This document shows positions 53,354 to 61,208 of a DNA stretch of 64,000 bases, piece by piece. The notes beneath the pieces are model-generated. The model was not told the origin of the DNA. It ran no database searches and saw nothing but the letters and a program-made list of their open reading frames with translations. The stretch is from contig NZ_CP039381.1 of assembly GCF_005601135.1 (NCBI RefSeq), forward strand, positions 1,051,941 through 1,115,940, written 5' to 3'. A program made the translations under genes and the position numbers. The first letter of the stretch is position 1. The number at the start of each line of letters is the position of its first letter. The DNA is from Ruminococcus bovis. GTDB taxonomy: Bacteria > Bacillota > Clostridia > Oscillospirales > Acutalibacteraceae.

Positions 53354-53785
53354 TTATTTTGGGTTAAATTTTCTTTTAAACCGGTTGTGTATTCTTATTA
53401 TAGAGAATAGGAATTTTTTTGTGGGAAATGATAAGCAGAAAAATCTGCTATACAGGTTAAACTTTAGGGAAGTTACTTTTGTGATTTTGTTATTGTGAGA
53501 GAATTCACTCATTTTGCCGATAATTTGGCTTTTGTCAATAACCTCTTTTTGAAATTCATTGTCACCACACATAGTAACTTTACTGCCTTTAATTTTGAGA
53601 ATTCTGTGAAGTACAAGCTGGTTTGTGTTTCTCCTAAAGAGAACAACATCATATTTCTTTAGCTTAGTTGGAAAGGTAATATATACTGAGTCTTTGTGGT
53701 CAATTAGTAGTGGGTACATACTTGTGCCATGTACCGGTGCTGAATAAAACCCATATTTTGCAATAATATCTTCAGGTTTATTCAT
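53354..53785 (-). CDS. S24/S26-type signal peptidase-like protein
   Basis: 143 residues. The catalytic Ser lies in PVHGTSMYPLL (S22), followed by KKYDVVLFRR and LVLHRILKI, where the His (H60) occupies the place of the general base in SipW/ER-type enzymes. TMCGDNEFQKE matches the conserved GDN box. There is no N-terminal membrane helix, but a basic hydrophobic C terminus may bind membrane. The ATG at 53785 overlaps the pqqD-like gene by 8 nt. In this cassette it may cleave the leader from the modified peptide. The role is inferred from context. Confidence 0.75.
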   Translation of the reverse strand: MNKPEDIIAKYGFYSAPVHGTSMYPLLIDHKDSVYITFPTKLKKYDVVLFRRNTNQLVLHRILKIKGSKVTMCGDNEFQKEVIDKSQIIGKMSEFSHNNKITKVTSLKFNLYSRFFCLSFPTKKFLFSIIRIHNRFKRKFNPK

Positions 53786-54044
53786 CAAGCAGTCCAGCCT
53801 TTTTTATAGTTGCTAAAAATTCATCAAGGTCATTTTTTGCAGTTTCTTCGTCAATATCGTACTTATCAAGTAGGCTTTTAATGATGAAATCATAGGTAAC
53901 ATCATTTTGCATAACATTCCACACAAATTCACCGGTAGAGTTCATTTTTATAAATGTATTGTCGTAATCAGCCATTTCATCTGTGGCAACTGCAACAATT
54001 TTGTCTGCAAATTTTCTTAAAATAAAACCGTTCTTAATTTTCAT
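53778..54044 (-). CDS. PqqD-like peptide-recognition protein
   Basis: 88 residues with the PqqD/RRE fold signature: ILRKFADKIVAVATDEMADY, then the FIKMNSTGEFVWNVMQNDVT turn and helix, and a C-terminal winged helix (LLDKYDIDEETAKNDLDEFLATIKKAGLL). PqqD-like proteins bind leader peptides of ribosomally made, modified peptides. The start overlaps the HprK-like gene by 11 nt and the end overlaps the peptidase gene, so the three are translationally coupled. Confidence 0.85.
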   Translation of the reverse strand: MKIKNGFILRKFADKIVAVATDEMADYDNTFIKMNSTGEFVWNVMQNDVTYDFIIKSLLDKYDIDEETAKNDLDEFLATIKKAGLLDE

Positions 54045-54747
54045 TTTCTTCTCCTATAGCACTAAGTGCAGTATAACAAGCATCATCATTCATATTGCAT
54101 TTTAACAAAAATATAGGTGTGTTCTTGGTTAGTTTTTCTATAAAGTCCATTGCTTTGATTTTACCCATAGAATTTTTTGGAAAATCACAGGCATTAAGTA
54201 GTGGGAAAAGGGACTTTTCTTTCGGTAAAGGTTCAACTGAATTTTCCTTTGCTCTTTGCAAAAAGAAAATTCCACCAAGTTCACAAGAAGTGTTTTCACC
54301 TAAATTTTCTTTACCTTGCCATGGACATCCAAACACAATAGGCTTATCCTCTATAAATCTTATAAAAGGCTTATCACCGTTAATTATTTTTACGTTATCA
54401 CCTAAACATTTTTTCCATAGCATAATGTGAGTAGTTTTTCCTGTACCGGACTTTGCAGTAAAAATATAGGCTTTACCACTATATTCTATTGCTACACTGT
54501 GAAACAATACTCCATTATAATTGTTGAAAATTTCTTTACTGATATTTCTTAAAGTAGCTGAGGACTCATACAGAAAATCAGGAAAGTTAGGAGCAATTTT
54601 CTTTTCATTTATAATGTCATTTTCGGTAACAGTAACTGTAAAGTCAAAGTTATTTTCATTAGTTTCGTAATCCCTTAGTAAGGCAGATAAATACTGGCTT
54701 TTAGGGTTAATTTTTATATTAATATTTGCAATTTTATATATAGGCAT
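54034..54747 (-). CDS. HPr kinase-like P-loop protein of a RiPP-type cassette
   Basis: 237 residues. The centre has a Walker A loop, TAKSGTGKTTHI (P-loop about 98-106), and GDKPFIRF as a likely metal/Walker B-like site. GCPWQGKENLG and the LQRAKENSVEPL end resemble HprK/PEPCK-type ATPases found next to PqqD-like genes. The N-terminal 80 residues have no known motif. It probably phosphorylates or otherwise activates the peptide or a partner; true HPr kinase is unlikely. It is preceded by a terminator and its own GGTGG ribosome site. Confidence 0.75.
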   Translation of the reverse strand: MPIYKIANINIKINPKSQYLSALLRDYETNENNFDFTVTVTENDIINEKKIAPNFPDFLYESSATLRNISKEIFNNYNGVLFHSVAIEYSGKAYIFTAKSGTGKTTHIMLWKKCLGDNVKIINGDKPFIRFIEDKPIVFGCPWQGKENLGENTSCELGGIFFLQRAKENSVEPLPKEKSLFPLLNACDFPKNSMGKIKAMDFIEKLTKNTPIFLLKCNMNDDACYTALSAIGEENEN

Positions 54748-54762
54748 TTTTCCACCAAAAAA

Positions 54763-54786
54763 GGGGACTTAACAGTCCCCAAGAAA
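54763..54786 (-). terminator. Terminator between peptide and maturation genes
   Basis: Minus strand GGGGACT and AGTCCCC around GTTA, followed by U6. It lies between the 50-aa peptide gene and the HprK-like gene. Partial read-through would give more peptide than enzyme mRNA. Confidence 0.85.
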
Positions 54787-54789
54787 TTA

Positions 54790-54942
54790 TTATATTAAAT
54801 CATCAAACCAGCTTACATAAGCATTATCTCTTGCAGAGTCTTCTGCAATTGGGTCATCCGGTGATGGTGTTGATGTTGTGATTACATCATCGTTATTAAT
54901 TTCTTCAATCTCAATTTCAATCTTGCTATAAACTTCTTTCAT
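54790..54942 (-). CDS. Candidate RiPP precursor peptide (50 aa)
   Basis: A small gene with an AAAGGA ribosome site. It encodes MKEVYSKIEIEIEEINNDDV, then ITTSTPSPDDP, and an acidic tail ending AYVSWFDDLI. The YxxIEIEIxEx...DVITTS layout resembles, from memory, small clostridial peptides that accompany PqqD/HprK-like/S26-peptidase cassettes, where DVITTS precedes the core. The tail, rich in Asp with one Trp, would be the core. It is the gene just before the terminator and the three maturation genes. The modification chemistry is unknown. Confidence 0.7.
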   Translation of the reverse strand: MKEVYSKIEIEIEEINNDDVITTSTPSPDDPIAEDSARDNAYVSWFDDLI

Positions 54943-54960: not shown

Positions 54961-55383
54961 TTATGGTTTTACAACTATATCAAAATATCCATCAGGATCA
55001 GTAGTTAAAGTTGGTTTCGTTGTAGTAGTAGGTAGTATTATTGTTGATGGTTTTGTTGTAGTTTCATCTTGTCCTTTACTTGGGAAAGATGAAATCATCT
55101 TAACTGAATACTTCTGTATCATTGTTGCATCAGCAACTGTTACTTTACCATCTTTATTTACATCAGCTAAAGTAAGTTCTTCAGCTGAGAAATCTTCATT
55201 GTTTACAATTTTGTGTTGAATGTAAACTGCATCTTTTACATTGATTTTGCCATCTTTGTTTACATCACCAATTCGGTAGTTGCTTGTAACTTTAGCATCA
55301 TTATTACCGGAATATGCCGATACAACGCCGATTGAAGTAATAGCCATTGACAGCAAAATAACTAAACTAATTATTTTTTTCAT
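54961..55383 (-). CDS. Secreted protein with a type I dockerin domain
   Basis: 140 residues. The signal peptide is residues 1-23 (ends VSA). The dockerin spans about 36-95 with two calcium loops, GDVNKDGKINVKDAVYIQHK (D40-D51) and ADVNKDGKVTVADATMIQKY (D74-D85). The C terminus is a Thr/Pro-rich linker ending DGYFDIVVKP, with no catalytic domain. Dockerins bind cohesins in cellulosome- or amylosome-type assemblies. A dockerin without an enzyme could be a competitor, an adaptor or a fragment. It lies 18 bp before the RiPP-like peptide gene in the same operon. Confidence 0.88.
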   Translation of the reverse strand: MKKIISLVILLSMAITSIGVVSAYSGNNDAKVTSNYRIGDVNKDGKINVKDAVYIQHKIVNNEDFSAEELTLADVNKDGKVTVADATMIQKYSVKMISSFPSKGQDETTTKPSTIILPTTTTKPTLTTDPDGYFDIVVKP

Positions 55384-55396
55384 ATCTATTCTCCAA

Positions 55397-55903
55397 TTAT
55401 TCTAATGTAAAGAAGTCAACTTCTCTTTCTACTTCACTATCACTTTGTGGTGTAGTTGGTTTAGTAGGCTTTTTGTTTGTGTTGTTTTTGTTAGTTGTTG
55501 TAGTTTCTGTTTTGCTCTTTTTGTTTGATTTTTTAGAGCTTTTAGAACTTTTTGAACTACTTGACTTGCTACTGCTTGAGTTGTTCTTGTTAACAGAACT
55601 ACTGTTATTGGATTTGGAAGTAGAGTTACTCAGGGTATCTTTATTACTGTTATTTGTGTTACTACTTACACTTGAGTTTTCCTCATCAGAATTGCTACTT
55701 GTGGAAAACTTCCGGGAATTTTCTGTAGTATCTTTGTTTTTACTTTCTTTCGTATTATTTGTTGTGGTAGTAATGACGGTTGTGTCATTTTTACCTGATG
55801 AAACGATAGCATTGTCCTTTTTAGAACAACCACTAAAAATAAATATCAAAAGTGAAAAACATAATACAACAATAAAAAACCTAGTTTTTCTTGTGTTTTT
55901 CAT
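55397..55903 (-). CDS. Low-complexity Ser/Asn/Lys-rich lipoprotein
   Basis: A 168-residue lipoprotein with signal MKNTRKTRFFIVVLCFSLLIFIF and lipobox SGC (Cys near 26). Almost all of the rest is Ser, Asn, Lys and Thr (long SSSSKSS runs, then TTTTNKNNTNK), ending in a short acidic tail EREVDFFTLE. There is no globular domain. The tail may be a recognition or anchoring tag. The start at 55903 has AAGGATAG; the frame upstream is open but unsupported. First gene of the minus-strand operon with the dockerin and RiPP-like genes. A surface tether or spacer role is inferred. Confidence 0.75.
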   Translation of the reverse strand: MKNTRKTRFFIVVLCFSLLIFIFSGCSKKDNAIVSSGKNDTTVITTTTNNTKESKNKDTTENSRKFSTSSNSDEENSSVSSNTNNSNKDTLSNSTSKSNNSSSVNKNNSSSSKSSSSKSSKSSKKSNKKSKTETTTTNKNNTNKKPTKPTTPQSDSEVEREVDFFTLE

Positions 55904-56057: not shown

Positions 56058-56861
56058 TTAAACTTGTGATTGTAAATAAGCATTTGTAAATTCTGCCCAA
56101 CTATAATTAGCCATATATTCACCTTGATAAAGGTTAAGTGCAGCAGCCTTGCCCTCATAGAATTCATACACATCACAAAGTACCTTGGTTGTATCAATAG
56201 CAGTATGATTTCTGCTTCTTATTAATATATCTTCAACACCATAGTCTTTAAGTGTATGTCTAAGTGAAGAAATAATTGTTGGTACACTTTTTACTTTATT
56301 GTCATCTTCCCACAAAGTTATTGCAATCTCAACATTAGTAACGGAAGCACCTTTCTTATCAACTAATTGTGCAAGAAGCTCCTTAGCCTTTAACCTTTTC
56401 CAATGAATAGGCTTTTTATCAACAAAAACATCAAAGTTGCCAAAGGTTTTGATTTCCACCTTTTTCTCAGTAGGAATATCCCCAATATTAGAAAACATAA
56501 GGCTAAGTTGTTCCAGGGAATTTCTGATTTTTTCCGGTGTAATAGGTTTTAACAGATACCCAACTGCATTTACACCGAAAGCATCAATAGCTCTGTCTGA
56601 ATAAGCAGTACAGAAAAGTATCTTTGTTTTAGGTTTTAATTTTTTAATTTCTTTTGCCACATCAATGCCGTTGCCACCCCTTAACCTAATGTCAAGAAAT
56701 GCATAGTCAAGGGGTTTGTTTCCTAGAGACTTTACAAATCCTATAGCATCTTCCGATTCTTCAAAACCTTTTATAATGTCGTTTTCATCAAAAACTTTTT
56801 CTAAGCTGTCTGTCAATGCCCATAGCATTAATTCTTCATCATCTAATGCCAATATATTCAT
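56058..56861 (-). CDS. Response regulator with SARP-type output domain
   Basis: 267 residues. The receiver domain (1-125) has acidic pocket D7/D8, phospho-acceptor D57 (FLDIRL), the conserved Thr-Ala of FCTAYSD and Lys in LLKPIT. The output domain (about 135-240) is a winged helix with a transcriptional-activation fold: IKTFGNFDVFVDKKPIHWKRLKAKELLAQLVDKKG and TIISSLRHTLKDYGVEDIL, as in SARP/BTAD regulators. It overlaps the kinase gene by 23 bp. It is not a LytTR protein even though its kinase is LytS-like. Targets are unknown; the operon beginning at 55903 is a candidate. Confidence 0.88.
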   Translation of the reverse strand: MNILALDDEELMLWALTDSLEKVFDENDIIKGFEESEDAIGFVKSLGNKPLDYAFLDIRLRGGNGIDVAKEIKKLKPKTKILFCTAYSDRAIDAFGVNAVGYLLKPITPEKIRNSLEQLSLMFSNIGDIPTEKKVEIKTFGNFDVFVDKKPIHWKRLKAKELLAQLVDKKGASVTNVEIAITLWEDDNKVKSVPTIISSLRHTLKDYGVEDILIRSRNHTAIDTTKVLCDVYEFYEGKAAALNLYQGEYMANYSWAEFTNAYLQSQV

Positions 56862-57768
56862 CAATTTTCGCCTCGTCTATCTTTTTAGGAATTGTGATTG
56901 TTACAGTAGTGCCAACATTAACTTCACTTTTAATGTTAACAGTACCACCAACCATTATCTCGATTCTTTCAGTAACACTGGAAATACCAATGTGGGATTT
57001 TTTGTCATCATTTTCTAATTCCGATTTGTTATATTCAAACCCAACACCATTGTCTTTTACTTCAAGCACTACATTGTCACCATCACTAAAGGTAGAAATC
57101 TTAATTGTACCTCCACCTTTCTTGTTGCCAACACCATGCTTTACTGCATTTTCTACAATTGGTTGAAGTGTCAGTACAGGTAGGTAGAAGTTCATTTCTT
57201 TTATGTCATATTCAATATTCAGTTTTTTGCCGAACCTTAATTTTTCTAGGTCAAGATAGTATTTTACATTCTTAATTTCTTCAAAAAATATAATATAGTT
57301 TTTGCTAAGACCGGTATCTATATTACTTCTTAAGTAATTAGAAAAATTATCCATAGCCTCATCAGCTTTTTCAGGATCTTTTCTGTAAAGAATTCTAATT
57401 GTAGAAAGTGTATTGTATAGGAAATGAGGCTTTAGCTGATTTAAGATAACTTGTGTTTTAGCCTCTTTCACCATTTTCTCTTGTTCTTTTTCTTCCTTAA
57501 TCAGTATGTAAATCTTTTTGTTTAACTTAGTAACACTAATATAAAAACTTGCTAAAAACATAATAGAACAGTTGAAAAGGTCACGCCAAAAAATTTCAGT
57601 AGGAGCAAGATAAGCCTCACCAACAAGTGCAACTGTAAAAGTAAGTATAAGAAACAGTAAGGTGTCTGTAGGGTAACTGTCAAAGATTGCACCGGTAATC
57701 AGTAGTGCAGCACATAACAGTACACTAATATCGTTCCTCTGAACAATAGTATCATAAAAAAATAGCAA
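56839..57768 (-). CDS. Sensor histidine kinase, C-terminal part (probable split gene)
   Basis: 309 residues. The N-terminal piece holds about two transmembrane helices, then a coiled linker (NKKIYILIKEEKEQEKMVKEAK), the LytS-type His_kinase segment QLKPHFLYNTLSTIR with H115, and the ATPase with IVENAVKHGVG (N box), VKDNGVGF (G1) and the GISSVTERI region. Its first codon lies in a T7 run shared with the end of the upstream frame. Joining the two frames there gives a continuous LytS-like sensor of about 420 residues, so this is probably the 3' part of one gene. Confidence 0.88.
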   Translation of the reverse strand: MLFFYDTIVQRNDISVLLCAALLITGAIFDSYPTDTLLFLILTFTVALVGEAYLAPTEIFWRDLFNCSIMFLASFYISVTKLNKKIYILIKEEKEQEKMVKEAKTQVILNQLKPHFLYNTLSTIRILYRKDPEKADEAMDNFSNYLRSNIDTGLSKNYIIFFEEIKNVKYYLDLEKLRFGKKLNIEYDIKEMNFYLPVLTLQPIVENAVKHGVGNKKGGGTIKISTFSDGDNVVLEVKDNGVGFEYNKSELENDDKKSHIGISSVTERIEIMVGGTVNIKSEVNVGTTVTITIPKKIDEAKIDEYIGIR

Positions 57769-58096
57769 GTCCTACAAATGTAACTGAAAATGTGGTAGTT
57801 AGTATTTTGGAGTATGTAAGAAGATTTTTGCCGTTTTTTAATGCTCTTTTGGTACAGAAATCAACAGCTAAAAGTATACATATGCCAATAAGGAAAGGTA
57901 CTATATTTATTAAGGTATAGTTTAGTAACATACTTCTCACTATCATTATATAAATAAGAAGCAATGCACCACCTTTGGTATAGTACTTTAAGGATTGTAA
58001 ATTACCGGATGCTAAAATATTATCAAAACGATTTATATTTTCATCTTTATATTTTCTTAAAAAAATGGAATTTATTTTATTTGCAATATTGTTCAT
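57752..58096 (-). CDS. Membrane segment, probable N-terminal part of the split kinase
   Basis: 114 residues with about three transmembrane helices (near 43-62, 64-82 and 94-114). The frame ends GLAIFL-stop in the T7 run at 57756-57762. Removing one T would read GLAIF then YDTIVQRNDISVLL, passing straight into the kinase frame without a stop. This is a homopolymer frameshift: a true mutation, a phase-variable switch, slippage or a sequencing error. The promoter at 58144-58172 serves the whole unit. Confidence 0.75.
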   Translation of the reverse strand: MNNIANKINSIFLRKYKDENINRFDNILASGNLQSLKYYTKGGALLLIYIMIVRSMLLNYTLINIVPFLIGICILLAVDFCTKRALKNGKNLLTYSKILTTTFSVTFVGLAIFL

Positions 58097-58271: not shown

Positions 58272-61208
58272 ATGAAGTTGAAAAAAGTTTTATCTTTAGC
58301 ACTTTGTGGTGTAATGCTAAGCACAACTGCAGTAAGTATTATACCAACAATTTCAGCTGAGGAAAGTAGTCTAGAGAGCTATGCTACTTCAAATGATACA
58401 TATGGCTCAAAAATTGAAAATGGTGGTTTTGAAAAACCTGTAATAACGGTAGGATGGGGTGCACAGAAACCTCAAAGTGAAGTTCCTTATTGGTCAACAA
58501 CGGCTACAGATAATAAAATTGAGATGTTTAAGGAAAATACTGCTATGATAAAAGGTGTCAAGGTTACACCTCCTGAAGGTAGTCAAGCAGCTGAACTAAA
58601 TGCTGAACAAACAGGTACTCTTTATCAGTATGTTAAAACCAGTGGTGGCAGTCAATATAAATGGAATCTTTATCATCGTGGTCGTACCGGCGATGATACA
58701 ATGGCACTTGTTATCGGTCCAAAGCAAAAGTATAATCCTAAGAAAACTTCTGCTAATAGCAAAGACCAATTTATGAAAATTGTTGATTGGGCTAAGAATA
58801 ACATTGCTGAACCAAGAAACAGTAATGCCGAAATAAAAACAAACGATATTCCAACTAAGCTTACTGTGTATTCAAAACCTTTTGATAATAACGGTGACTT
58901 TGAAAATTCAACAGACAATAATTTCAGCTTTGAACAAAGTTATATATATTCCGAACGATGGGATGTTTGGATTATGAAAAGTGATAACAAAGAATGGCAT
59001 CACTATGGTGATGAAACTGATTTACCTGAAGGAGAAAGTCAGTATAACATATATAATGTACCGGAAGAATCAAATGAGTCTATTTTTGGCTTTGTAGCAT
59101 ATGCCACATCAAACGGTAACCTAACTTGTGGTAACTTCCTAGACGGTATTGAGTTTGAACTTTACCACCCTGCAAAGACTCAGTCAAATACCGGTGGTAG
59201 TGGTAGTGTAGAATATACTTTTGACGGAACTACAACAAAGACCGATTTTAGGGCAGAACAGTCTGTTGATACAATGGTAGATGATGAGTCCACAGTTAAG
59301 GTAACTGCTATTCCTGACTTTGCAAAGGACTCTAGTGGTACTTATAAGAAAGACAAAGACGGTAATTATATCCAAAATAATTTCCTTGGTGCATATGTTA
59401 CTTATAACGGTGAAAGCCATTATATAGATAAAGATGATAGCCGTTGGACAAAGGTAACAAAGCATAATGATGAACTAAACCAAGATTATGATACCTATGA
59501 ATACACAGTTAGTGGTGTTTCCGGTAGAGTAATTGTTGACCTATATTATTCTGAAATCTATACAGTAACTTTCCTTGAAAATGGTGGTAAAAAGTATGAT
59601 GCTACCACAAGAGGTACAAGAGAAGGTGTAGAAGTATCAGAAGACAGTAATAATGTTGTAAGATTTAATAGTGTTACATCAGGTAAATATGTTTCAGAAA
59701 CTTGTCAGTGGTGGAATCCTGAAGATACAAACGGTAGATTTTATGGTTGGGAACTTCTTGATTATAAGGACGCTAACGGTAATCCTGTAATCTTTGACAG
59801 AGATACAACTATTACATATACATATTCAGGTGGTAGTACAGATGGCCTATGCTTTACTATTAAAGATACTAAGGGTCATGAAGTAACTACTATGAAAGCA
59901 GTTGACGGTATAACATTCCTAGCAAGATGGCAACCTCATGTTAAGATTGTTCCTCAAATTGAAAATAGTGACGGTACATATACTGACTCAAATGTAGGTG
60001 GTACAGTTTCTATTGAAAAAACCGATGAAGTGTATGATTATTCTGAAAACACAGACGGTAGCTTTGAATATTATTCTTATATGAACAGAGACTTCAATGT
60101 TACTGCTACTGCTAAATCCGGTTATGTGTTCTTAGGTTGGTATGACGAAAATGATAAGTTGATTACACTTAGCGAAAATCATAAAACTCAAGTTACTAAC
60201 ATTGGTAAAACAGAATTTGCAAGATTTAAGTACAATAGCTATAATGTTCGTTTCCACATAAATGATGAAGATACAGTTTCTACTGCATCAGATACTTCAG
60301 CTGATGTAATAAGTGACCGTATCTATAGCCCATCATATGTTGAGGGTGACAGAAACCTAAACAGTGATAACACTATCAGTTATTTTTATGATATTCCAAA
60401 AACAACAAAGAATGGACAACAGACATATAAAGTGTTTAAGGGTTGGTACTTAAACAAAGATAATGATGATGACTCTAAGCCAATAGTATGGGATAAAACA
60501 AAGTTTGATATTGATACAGACGTTTATGCCCATTGGATTGACAGAGGTACAGTTGCAAAGGATAGTTCAGATACAAAGCAAACAGGTTCATCTTCATATA
60601 TTGGTTTTGACTTGTTTGGTGTTCAGCTAAGAAGTGCCGAAAAAGACCCTAACTATCCGGATGGTACAGGCTCTACACCTGCTTATGCAACACAAGGCTT
60701 AAGATTTGTAACTTCATTAAGTGAAGATTTGTTAAATCAAATAAATTCACTGGATAGCAAAACAAAGCCAAGTTACGGTTATGTACTTGCTAAAACATCT
60801 ACTGCAAATACATATGCTAAGGGTAGCAGTGATTACGAATTACAGTATAACGGTAAGAATGTAAACGGTGTTGATACTACAACTACTTATAAGTACATTA
60901 AGAATGTTGACTGTACAAGTAAAAAGACTAACTCAGCAAGTGCAATCACTTTAGATCATTTCAATGCAAGTAAGTATAGAATTTACTCACTTGTAGTAAC
61001 ATATGACAACTTAAGTCCTGAACTAATTGCTAATGCAATTAAGCAACCGGTTGTTGCTCGTTCATACATTCGTTATACTGATGCAAATGGTCTCCTTAGA
61101 ACTTATTACAATGACTATAGTGGTACTTCAACATACAAAGGTTGTAGCACAAGCTATAGCAAAGTAAAAGACTTTATCCAAGATAACTACCAAAATATAG
61201 ATAAATAA
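58272..61208 (+). CDS. Large secreted protein with InlB-B/Listeria-Bacteroides-type repeats
   Basis: 978 residues with signal peptide 1-29 (ends ISA) and no visible anchor (no LPXTG, no dockerin). The N-terminal part (about 45-300) reads like a beta-sandwich carbohydrate-binding-type domain (IENGGFEKP...PYWSTTATDNKIEMF, SQAAELNAEQTGTLYQYV). The middle holds degenerate repeats with YxVTFxxNGG and FxGWYxxxxK patterns (for example FLGWYDENDKLITLS and KVFKGWYLNKDND). The C terminus (about 780-978) is a further beta domain, GLRFVTSLSEDL...SYGYVLAKTST. Similar proteins act as adhesins or polymer binders. A GGAGTGG site precedes the ATG. Function not assigned. Confidence 0.82.
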   Translation: MKLKKVLSLALCGVMLSTTAVSIIPTISAEESSLESYATSNDTYGSKIENGGFEKPVITVGWGAQKPQSEVPYWSTTATDNKIEMFKENTAMIKGVKVTPPEGSQAAELNAEQTGTLYQYVKTSGGSQYKWNLYHRGRTGDDTMALVIGPKQKYNPKKTSANSKDQFMKIVDWAKNNIAEPRNSNAEIKTNDIPTKLTVYSKPFDNNGDFENSTDNNFSFEQSYIYSERWDVWIMKSDNKEWHHYGDETDLPEGESQYNIYNVPEESNESIFGFVAYATSNGNLTCGNFLDGIEFELYHPAKTQSNTGGSGSVEYTFDGTTTKTDFRAEQSVDTMVDDESTVKVTAIPDFAKDSSGTYKKDKDGNYIQNNFLGAYVTYNGESHYIDKDDSRWTKVTKHNDELNQDYDTYEYTVSGVSGRVIVDLYYSEIYTVTFLENGGKKYDATTRGTREGVEVSEDSNNVVRFNSVTSGKYVSETCQWWNPEDTNGRFYGWELLDYKDANGNPVIFDRDTTITYTYSGGSTDGLCFTIKDTKGHEVTTMKAVDGITFLARWQPHVKIVPQIENSDGTYTDSNVGGTVSIEKTDEVYDYSENTDGSFEYYSYMNRDFNVTATAKSGYVFLGWYDENDKLITLSENHKTQVTNIGKTEFARFKYNSYNVRFHINDEDTVSTASDTSADVISDRIYSPSYVEGDRNLNSDNTISYFYDIPKTTKNGQQTYKVFKGWYLNKDNDDDSKPIVWDKTKFDIDTDVYAHWIDRGTVAKDSSDTKQTGSSSYIGFDLFGVQLRSAEKDPNYPDGTGSTPAYATQGLRFVTSLSEDLLNQINSLDSKTKPSYGYVLAKTSTANTYAKGSSDYELQYNGKNVNGVDTTTTYKYIKNVDCTSKKTNSASAITLDHFNASKYRIYSLVVTYDNLSPELIANAIKQPVVARSYIRYTDANGLLRTYYNDYSGTSTYKGCSTSYSKVKDFIQDNYQNIDK

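Follow-up and report, generated by a model that had tools for sequence, protein, structure and literature searches.

A probable clostridial variant of the linear polyphosphorylated peptide pathway beside a lone dockerin gene in Ruminococcus bovis

A four-gene cassette of Ruminococcus bovis, a gut bacterium and relative of Ruminococcus bromii, most probably represents a divergent clostridial variant of the pathway for linear polyphosphorylated peptides (LPPs), with its genes in the order lppA-K-B-S. It occupies 53354-54942 on the minus strand of the window, i.e. the whole 64,000-nucleotide stretch of DNA analyzed here. Gene set, gene order, folds, conserved residues and gene pairing are all evident at the level of sequence. 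LPPs have been described for the lppAKBSDN genes of P. alginolyticus (Popov et al. 2026, Nat Commun, PMC13381572), where the HprK-like LppK was shown to phosphorylate Ser+3 of the precursor LppA, and where the SipW-like peptidase LppS, which uses Ser and His, removes the leader with the aid of the RRE protein LppB. An earlier sequence-only reading of the window had regarded the chemistry of this RiPP-like cassette as open and a kinase-like modification as possible. The first statement can no longer be upheld, since the gene set is that of the published LPPs, and for the same reason the idea of an unprecedented cassette was rejected; the second gains backing by analogy, through homology to the HprK-like Ser kinase of the LPP pathway (PMC13381572).

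Genes, folds and conserved residues of the cassette

Inspection of ORFs and sequence places on the minus strand, in this order, the peptide gene, a terminator-like hairpin and the genes for an HprK-like protein, a PqqD protein and an S26 peptidase. The LppA-like precursor peptide of 50 aa (54790..54942) has the leader YSKIEIEIEEI..DDVITTS and an acidic core. A hairpin with a T run (54763..54780) separates it from the LppK-like HprK-related kinase (237 aa, 54034..54747, P-loop SGTGKT), which is followed by the LppB-like discrete RRE (PqqD, 88 aa, 53778..54044) and the LppS-like S26 peptidase (53354..53788; 144 aa if read from TTG, the ATG one codon downstream being the likelier start). The HprK-like and PqqD genes overlap by 11 nt, as do the PqqD and S26 genes. 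Upstream on the same strand lie a secreted lone dockerin of 140 aa (54961..55383), whose stop is 18 nt from the peptide start, a Ser/Thr/Lys-rich lipoprotein (55397..55903, lipobox FSGC), a response regulator (56058..56864) and a histidine kinase in split frame (56839..58096, break near 57755). Divergent from this operon, the plus strand encodes a secreted protein of 978 aa (58272..61208), which shows a weak match to the InlB B-repeat. The sequence-only reading had described four genes, three of them overlapping, a terminator between the peptide and its maturation genes, and the upstream dockerin and lipoprotein, and all of these ORFs and the hairpin were recovered; to this we add that dockerin and lipoprotein both bear conserved C-terminal tails (DGYFDIVVKP and EREVDFFTLE, respectively).

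In Pfam, the RRE gene matches PqqD (5.2e-14) and the gene upstream of the peptide matches dockerin (3.7e-12). Response regulator and histidine kinase are likewise recognized, the S26 match of the peptidase stays under the cut-off (0.04), and neither the peptide nor the HprK-like protein has a match. Weak NCBIfam matches were considered for the identity of the HprK-like protein and rejected, all being far under cut-off. Its AlphaFold model (pLDDT 95.6) has the HprK and PEPCK fold, with 1kkm as top Foldseek match (7.5e-6) and a best Z of 12.8 with 1xkv (213 residues, 4.2 A), and Gly101, Gly103 and Lys104 of the P-loop do not vary among 22 relatives. The protein is HprK-like by its modeled fold and its P-loop, and its kinase activity is predicted.

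The RRE profile matches LppB (9x8z_B) at 1e-6, and also the lasso B1 proteins TbiB1 and PDB entry 9x90. Leader-binding residues are visible in the LppB-LppA crystal structure (PMC13381572); LppB N33, D70 and F74 correspond to N35, D72 and F76 of the window protein; among 82 RREs these residues are conserved in 77, 75 and 72, respectively. The S26 protein is modeled with a LexA/signal-peptidase fold (AlphaFold, pLDDT 93.7). Its Ser23 and His61 do not vary across 16 relatives, the His standing at the position of the Lys of type I signal peptidases; D76 and E82, both also invariant, are candidate counterparts of LppS D93.

A second species of the genus (locus L033) has the same gene order from the two-component pair through the peptidase. 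Peptide, kinase and peptidase are there 53%, 51% and 60% identical to those of the window, and a different, stronger hairpin lies at the same place between peptide and kinase genes. Because peptide and neighbours stand there in conserved order, the cassette is more than a chance arrangement. Conservation of the peptide beside these genes, on which the sequence-only reading had staked its interpretation, is indeed what we find: the peptide is kept in L033, and related peptides occur in or near many such loci. L033 also encodes a 997-aa secreted protein at the position matching the window's 978-aa protein, and an NTP transferase (PF14907) after the peptidase. Its histidine kinase is a single 383-aa ORF. 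The window's histidine kinase frame breaks at a run of seven T (57740-57800, minus strand), and the split may reflect sequencing error, phase variation or decay.

The two-component genes, whose order is shared by the window and L033, would fit a peptide pheromone: the matured peptide would be sensed by the upstream histidine kinase and response regulator and would control its own operon as well as the 978-aa surface protein encoded divergently from it. We consider this scenario unlikely, since profiles built from the L033 pair gave two matches each in loci L031-L082, the window histidine kinase is frame-split, and most peptides lie behind structural genes, not sensors.

The precursor peptide family and its distribution across genomes

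A profile search yielded 59 distinct peptides from 153 loci, including the window, which had been selected for holding a kinase, RRE or peptide match (20 of the loci regions were hand-picked, mostly for their peptide matches). Their common leader reads YxxPE[IL]E[IV]..F...D[VI][IL].[TA]S, in a register whose pattern required Tyr/Phe at 0 and a hydrophobic residue at +5. Counting from the Tyr as 0, Y is present in 55 of the 59, P at +3 in 51, E at +4 in 37, E at +6 in 45, F or L at +10 in 48, D at +14 in 35, [VI] at +15 in 39, [IL] at +16 in 41, [TA] at +18 in 41 and S at +19 in 31; a Ser falls within +18 to +20 in 45 peptides. The DVITTS stretch pointed out by the sequence-only reading is the window version of D[VI][IL].[TA]S. 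In YxxP the window peptide has Ile for Pro (YSKIEIEI), and the same Ile is found in L033. For comparison, the Tyr of LppA lies at -16 and the Ser that receives the phosphate at +3, a distance of 18 residues, and both leader Tyr and Pro matter for RRE binding, which P-13A weakened (PMC13381572). The LPP motif Px9Fx[TA] is present in 3/59 peptides, and FET is absent from the window peptide. In all 59, acidic residues outnumber basic ones in the second half, a property for which the leader-based search did not directly select. Used as a single query, the window peptide matched only itself in its genome; a profile of 30 peptides gave three matches there.

Across 59 genomes (R. bovis itself, 35 of the same genus and 23 of the same order) the kinase family is present in 44, the RRE in 43 and the peptide in 40. 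Eight of the 23 order-level genomes have the kinase, and these same eight have the RRE; the peptide is present in seven of them vs one of the 15 others (Fisher p = 2.5e-4), a co-occurrence test that is not fully independent because profiles A1 and A3 include sequences from some of the 23 genomes. Together with the LppB leader-binding residues kept in the RRE and the matching leader, the co-occurrence of peptide, kinase and RRE bears out the RiPP-like character proposed earlier. The 36 genus genomes hold, by hand count, 110 peptide vs 70 RRE matches, with up to 13 peptides per genome, and a single enzyme set may serve several peptides.

Gene neighbourhoods were counted for 63 of 80 named loci, namely those in which an RRE was called (the 17 others were excluded). 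Within 4.5 kb of the RRE and on the same strand, a kinase was found in 47 of the 63, a peptidase in 40, a transporter in 33, an NTP transferase in 30 and all four in eight, as called by a simple gene caller that miscalled some genes. No peptide gene immediately precedes the kinase-RRE-peptidase operons of L048, L060, L063 and L065, whose genomes hold three to six candidate peptides elsewhere (G008 four, G033 five, G018 six, G005 three). In R. bromii ATCC 27255 (L109; L223), genes for RRE, peptidase and NTP transferase stand behind groEL-like genes, and L076, probably also from this strain, holds the peptide, a 299-aa protein with a dockerin match, the kinase and an 1811-aa secreted protein; with its genes at two separate places, the pathway can thus be split. 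RRE, S26 peptidase and NTP transferase lie directly behind groES-groEL-like genes in L223, L109, L123 and L127 (R. bromii strains and relatives), with neither kinase nor peptide beside these RRE genes.

An NTP transferase is present in L033 and in L031. The R. bovis genome has two PF14907 matches, both outside the window operon; L031, from this same genome, holds both a transporter and an NTP transferase. The genome's second NTP_transf_5 gene (L220, 9879-11057) is far from any RRE and adjoins a secreted-type protein. The notion that all HprK-like relatives act in the same pathway was dropped, since some stand alone beside housekeeping genes (L032, L035). Neither RRE nor peptidase is found near the HprK-like relatives of L032, L035 and L073; the neighbours in L032 and L035 are RsgA-like and thiamine pyrophosphokinase-like genes, which we take to be housekeeping genes. 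Viral contigs scanned with the RRE alignment contained no relative.

Secreted neighbours and the proposed mechanism

In 28 of the 59 peptides a secreted gene of at least 400 aa lies no more than 60 nt ahead of the peptide start, vs 3 of 125 control small ORFs, "secreted" being assigned by a rough signal-peptide rule. Some upstream gene lies within 60 nt of 40 peptides; 31 of these genes are secreted, 28 of them with a length of 400 aa or above. For another eight peptides the distance to the preceding gene, which codes for about 900 aa or more, is 62-78 nt, and the remainder are found at contig ends or next to other genes. The window peptide is preceded by the 140-aa dockerin, not by a giant gene. 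That peptide genes often follow giant secreted proteins had not been noted in the sequence-only reading, and it provides a first lead on a possible peptide function.

Six of the giants were tested in Pfam. InlB B-repeats (PF18998) score above cut-off in L085, L120 and L041 and below it in L204 and the window's 978-aa protein; they are absent from the L031 giant, which has Ig-like matches only (tested at E 0.01). Cohesin had no Pfam match in these giants (five proteins searched at E up to 0.5, one at 0.01). An LRR/BspA protein with a terminal dockerin is often encoded next. Such LRR-dockerin proteins (L085, L089, L099 and similar) carry their own conserved tail, VG.EV.., at the place of the DGYYxEIIKP tail of the window group. 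Pfam finds a single cohesin match in the R. bovis genome (L198, 556-1476; G000 contig position about 615000). The genome's third peptide, some 6.6 kb away, stands behind a 616-aa ORF for a secreted-type protein. Of 61 RRE-linked loci, 20 have a dockerin gene immediately ahead of the kinase, as have five of the 37 loci that lack an RRE (background 57 of 1659 genes). Peptides co-vary with the C-terminus of their partner (r = 0.538 in 40 non-redundant pairs) vs a mean r of 0.309 (sd 0.049) when peptides are shuffled within genomes (p = 2e-4), which shows a stable pairing of peptide and partner, not contact.

Together with L033, L048, L060, L062, L063 and L065, the window forms a subtype of seven loci. 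Their enzyme genes are preceded by a Ser-rich lipoprotein whose tail resembles VEIDFSDL and by a secreted protein whose tail resembles DGYYxEIIKP. Tails related to DGYFDIVVKP of the window dockerin are found in L033, L048, L060 and L062. In the second protein of L063 and L065 no dockerin was noticed, and a related tail, GWDPHIYQP, is kept, so that the dockerin may be less important than the tail. In L040 a lipoprotein with a looser tail, VELPFVPFD, stands ahead of a similar set. One could imagine that in this subtype the enzymes act on the C-terminal tails of lipoprotein and dockerin instead of the small peptide, the more so as the tails precede the enzymes in all seven loci and four of these have no peptide gene in front. 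We doubt this scenario, however, since the tails have no YxxP-type leader, the proteins carry signal peptides and would leave by Sec, and the genomes of the four peptide-less loci do hold candidate peptides elsewhere.

Even less probable is a decayed phosphorylated lasso-peptide cluster, of which kinase, RRE and sometimes NTP transferase and transporter would remain after loss of B2 and cyclase C. Paeninodin-type lasso clusters do share kinase, RRE and NTP transferase with such loci (PMC9266682, PMC13381572), and the lasso B1 matches of the RRE profile point the same way. Yet the lasso B2 leader peptidase (PF13471) has no match in the R. bovis genome and scores above cut-off in only two of the 59 genomes, the S26 peptidase, a hallmark of LPPs, replaces it, and the state is widespread and conserved, not decaying. 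That the sequence-only reading saw neither lasso cyclase nor radical SAM in the window agrees with two checks: the genome's two Asn-synthase matches both lie outside, and a motif check found no C...C..C in the called window ORFs of at least 100 aa. A bacteriocin, finally, for which a small matured peptide and patchy occurrence could be cited, is hardly credible given the acidic second half in 59 of 59 peptides, peptide genes coupled to secreted structural genes and no candidate immunity gene noticed beside the peptide.

For the favored LPP-type pathway we propose the following course. The RRE would bind the Tyr-containing leader, as shown for LPPs, and by analogy the HprK-like kinase would phosphorylate a Ser in or just past the DVITTS stretch. 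We infer that the SipW-like peptidase cuts near DVIT(T), which would free a linear, acidic phosphopeptide some 27-28 aa in length. Its export may fall to a transporter such as the one in L031 and its further decoration to an NTP transferase, both encoded elsewhere in the genome, and the terminator between lppA and lppK would yield precursor in excess of enzyme. Outside the cell the product probably acts with surface proteins: here presumably the co-operonic dockerin and lipoprotein, and in many relatives perhaps the giant secreted protein encoded just ahead of the peptide.

A further, tentative step, which we think possible without holding it the likelier outcome, is that clostridial LPP-type phosphopeptides are structural partners of giant surface or dockerin proteins, not signals or toxins. 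Each peptide gene would be coupled to one secreted-protein gene, a shared kinase-RRE-peptidase set, perhaps encoded elsewhere, would mature the peptide, and the matured peptide would join or anchor its partner at the cell surface. If true, this would be a RiPP class whose products form parts of surface architecture. The LPP-type reading itself would extend the pathway, with a distinct leader motif, to R. bromii and other Clostridia, and it attaches candidate partners to the peptides (giant secreted proteins, LRR-dockerin proteins, lone dockerins with a conserved tail). The peptide role becomes testable in an organism whose amylosome is under study, and the leader motif lets many more precursors be found. 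New here are the shared leader, the coupling to secreted genes, the excess of peptides over RREs, the adjacency of dockerin and kinase, and the co-diversification of peptide and partner.

Comparison with known systems

With the R. bromii amylosome, a starch complex of dockerins and cohesins, the cassette shares a similar organism and a dockerin next to it; it differs in that Pfam recognizes no enzyme or binding domain in the window dockerin, which has only its tail. HPr-rel-A (TIGR04352/TIGR04353) and SynChlorMet (TIGR04249/TIGR04248) likewise combine an HprK-related protein with a PqqD-type chaperone, but all four models match weakly, far under cut-off. Within the literature collection searched, no paper combines dockerin with PqqD, dockerin with RiPP recognition element, or InlB B-repeat with RiPP, and the LPP paper is the sole match for polyphosphorylated peptide with RiPP (PMC13381572). 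Its main text contains none of the terms clostridi-, dockerin, adhesin, surface protein or InlB; its supplementary lists may hold clostridial members.

Phosphorylated lasso peptides of the paeninodin/pseudomycoidin type resemble the cassette in HprK-like kinase, RRE and NTP transferase (PMC9266682). In contrast to them, the cassette has an S26 peptidase instead of B2 peptidase and cyclase, and a leader built on Tyr, whereas Bacillota lasso leaders mostly have Trp (PMC13381572).

The closest likeness is to the LPPs as described in that paper: a precursor, an HprK-like kinase, a discrete RRE and a SipW-like peptidase in the order A-K-B-S, a Tyr-based leader motif with a conserved Ser about 18-20 residues past the Tyr, and a gene set without lasso cyclase. 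The LPP leader, in contrast, reads YxxPxVLxHQxIxFETxxS, compared with YxxPE[IL]E[IV]..F...D[VI][IL].[TA]S here and YxxI in the window; the window operon lacks the MsbA-like transporter and the NTP transferase; the R. bovis genome has no lasso B2 match; and the paper ties LPPs to capsule loci of Bacilli, calling their biological role unknown, whereas the surroundings here are surface-protein and dockerin genes (PMC13381572). Against the LPP reading we count the missing Pro, the rarity of Px9Fx[TA], the missing transporter and NTP transferase, the operons with no adjacent peptide, the Ser at +19 in only 31/59 peptides and a window peptide that is not behind a giant gene. Since the leader motif departs from that of the LPPs, Ile replaces Pro, and NTP transferase and transporter are encoded elsewhere, the window cassette is best described as a variant that would work like an LPP pathway, not as a strict member of it.
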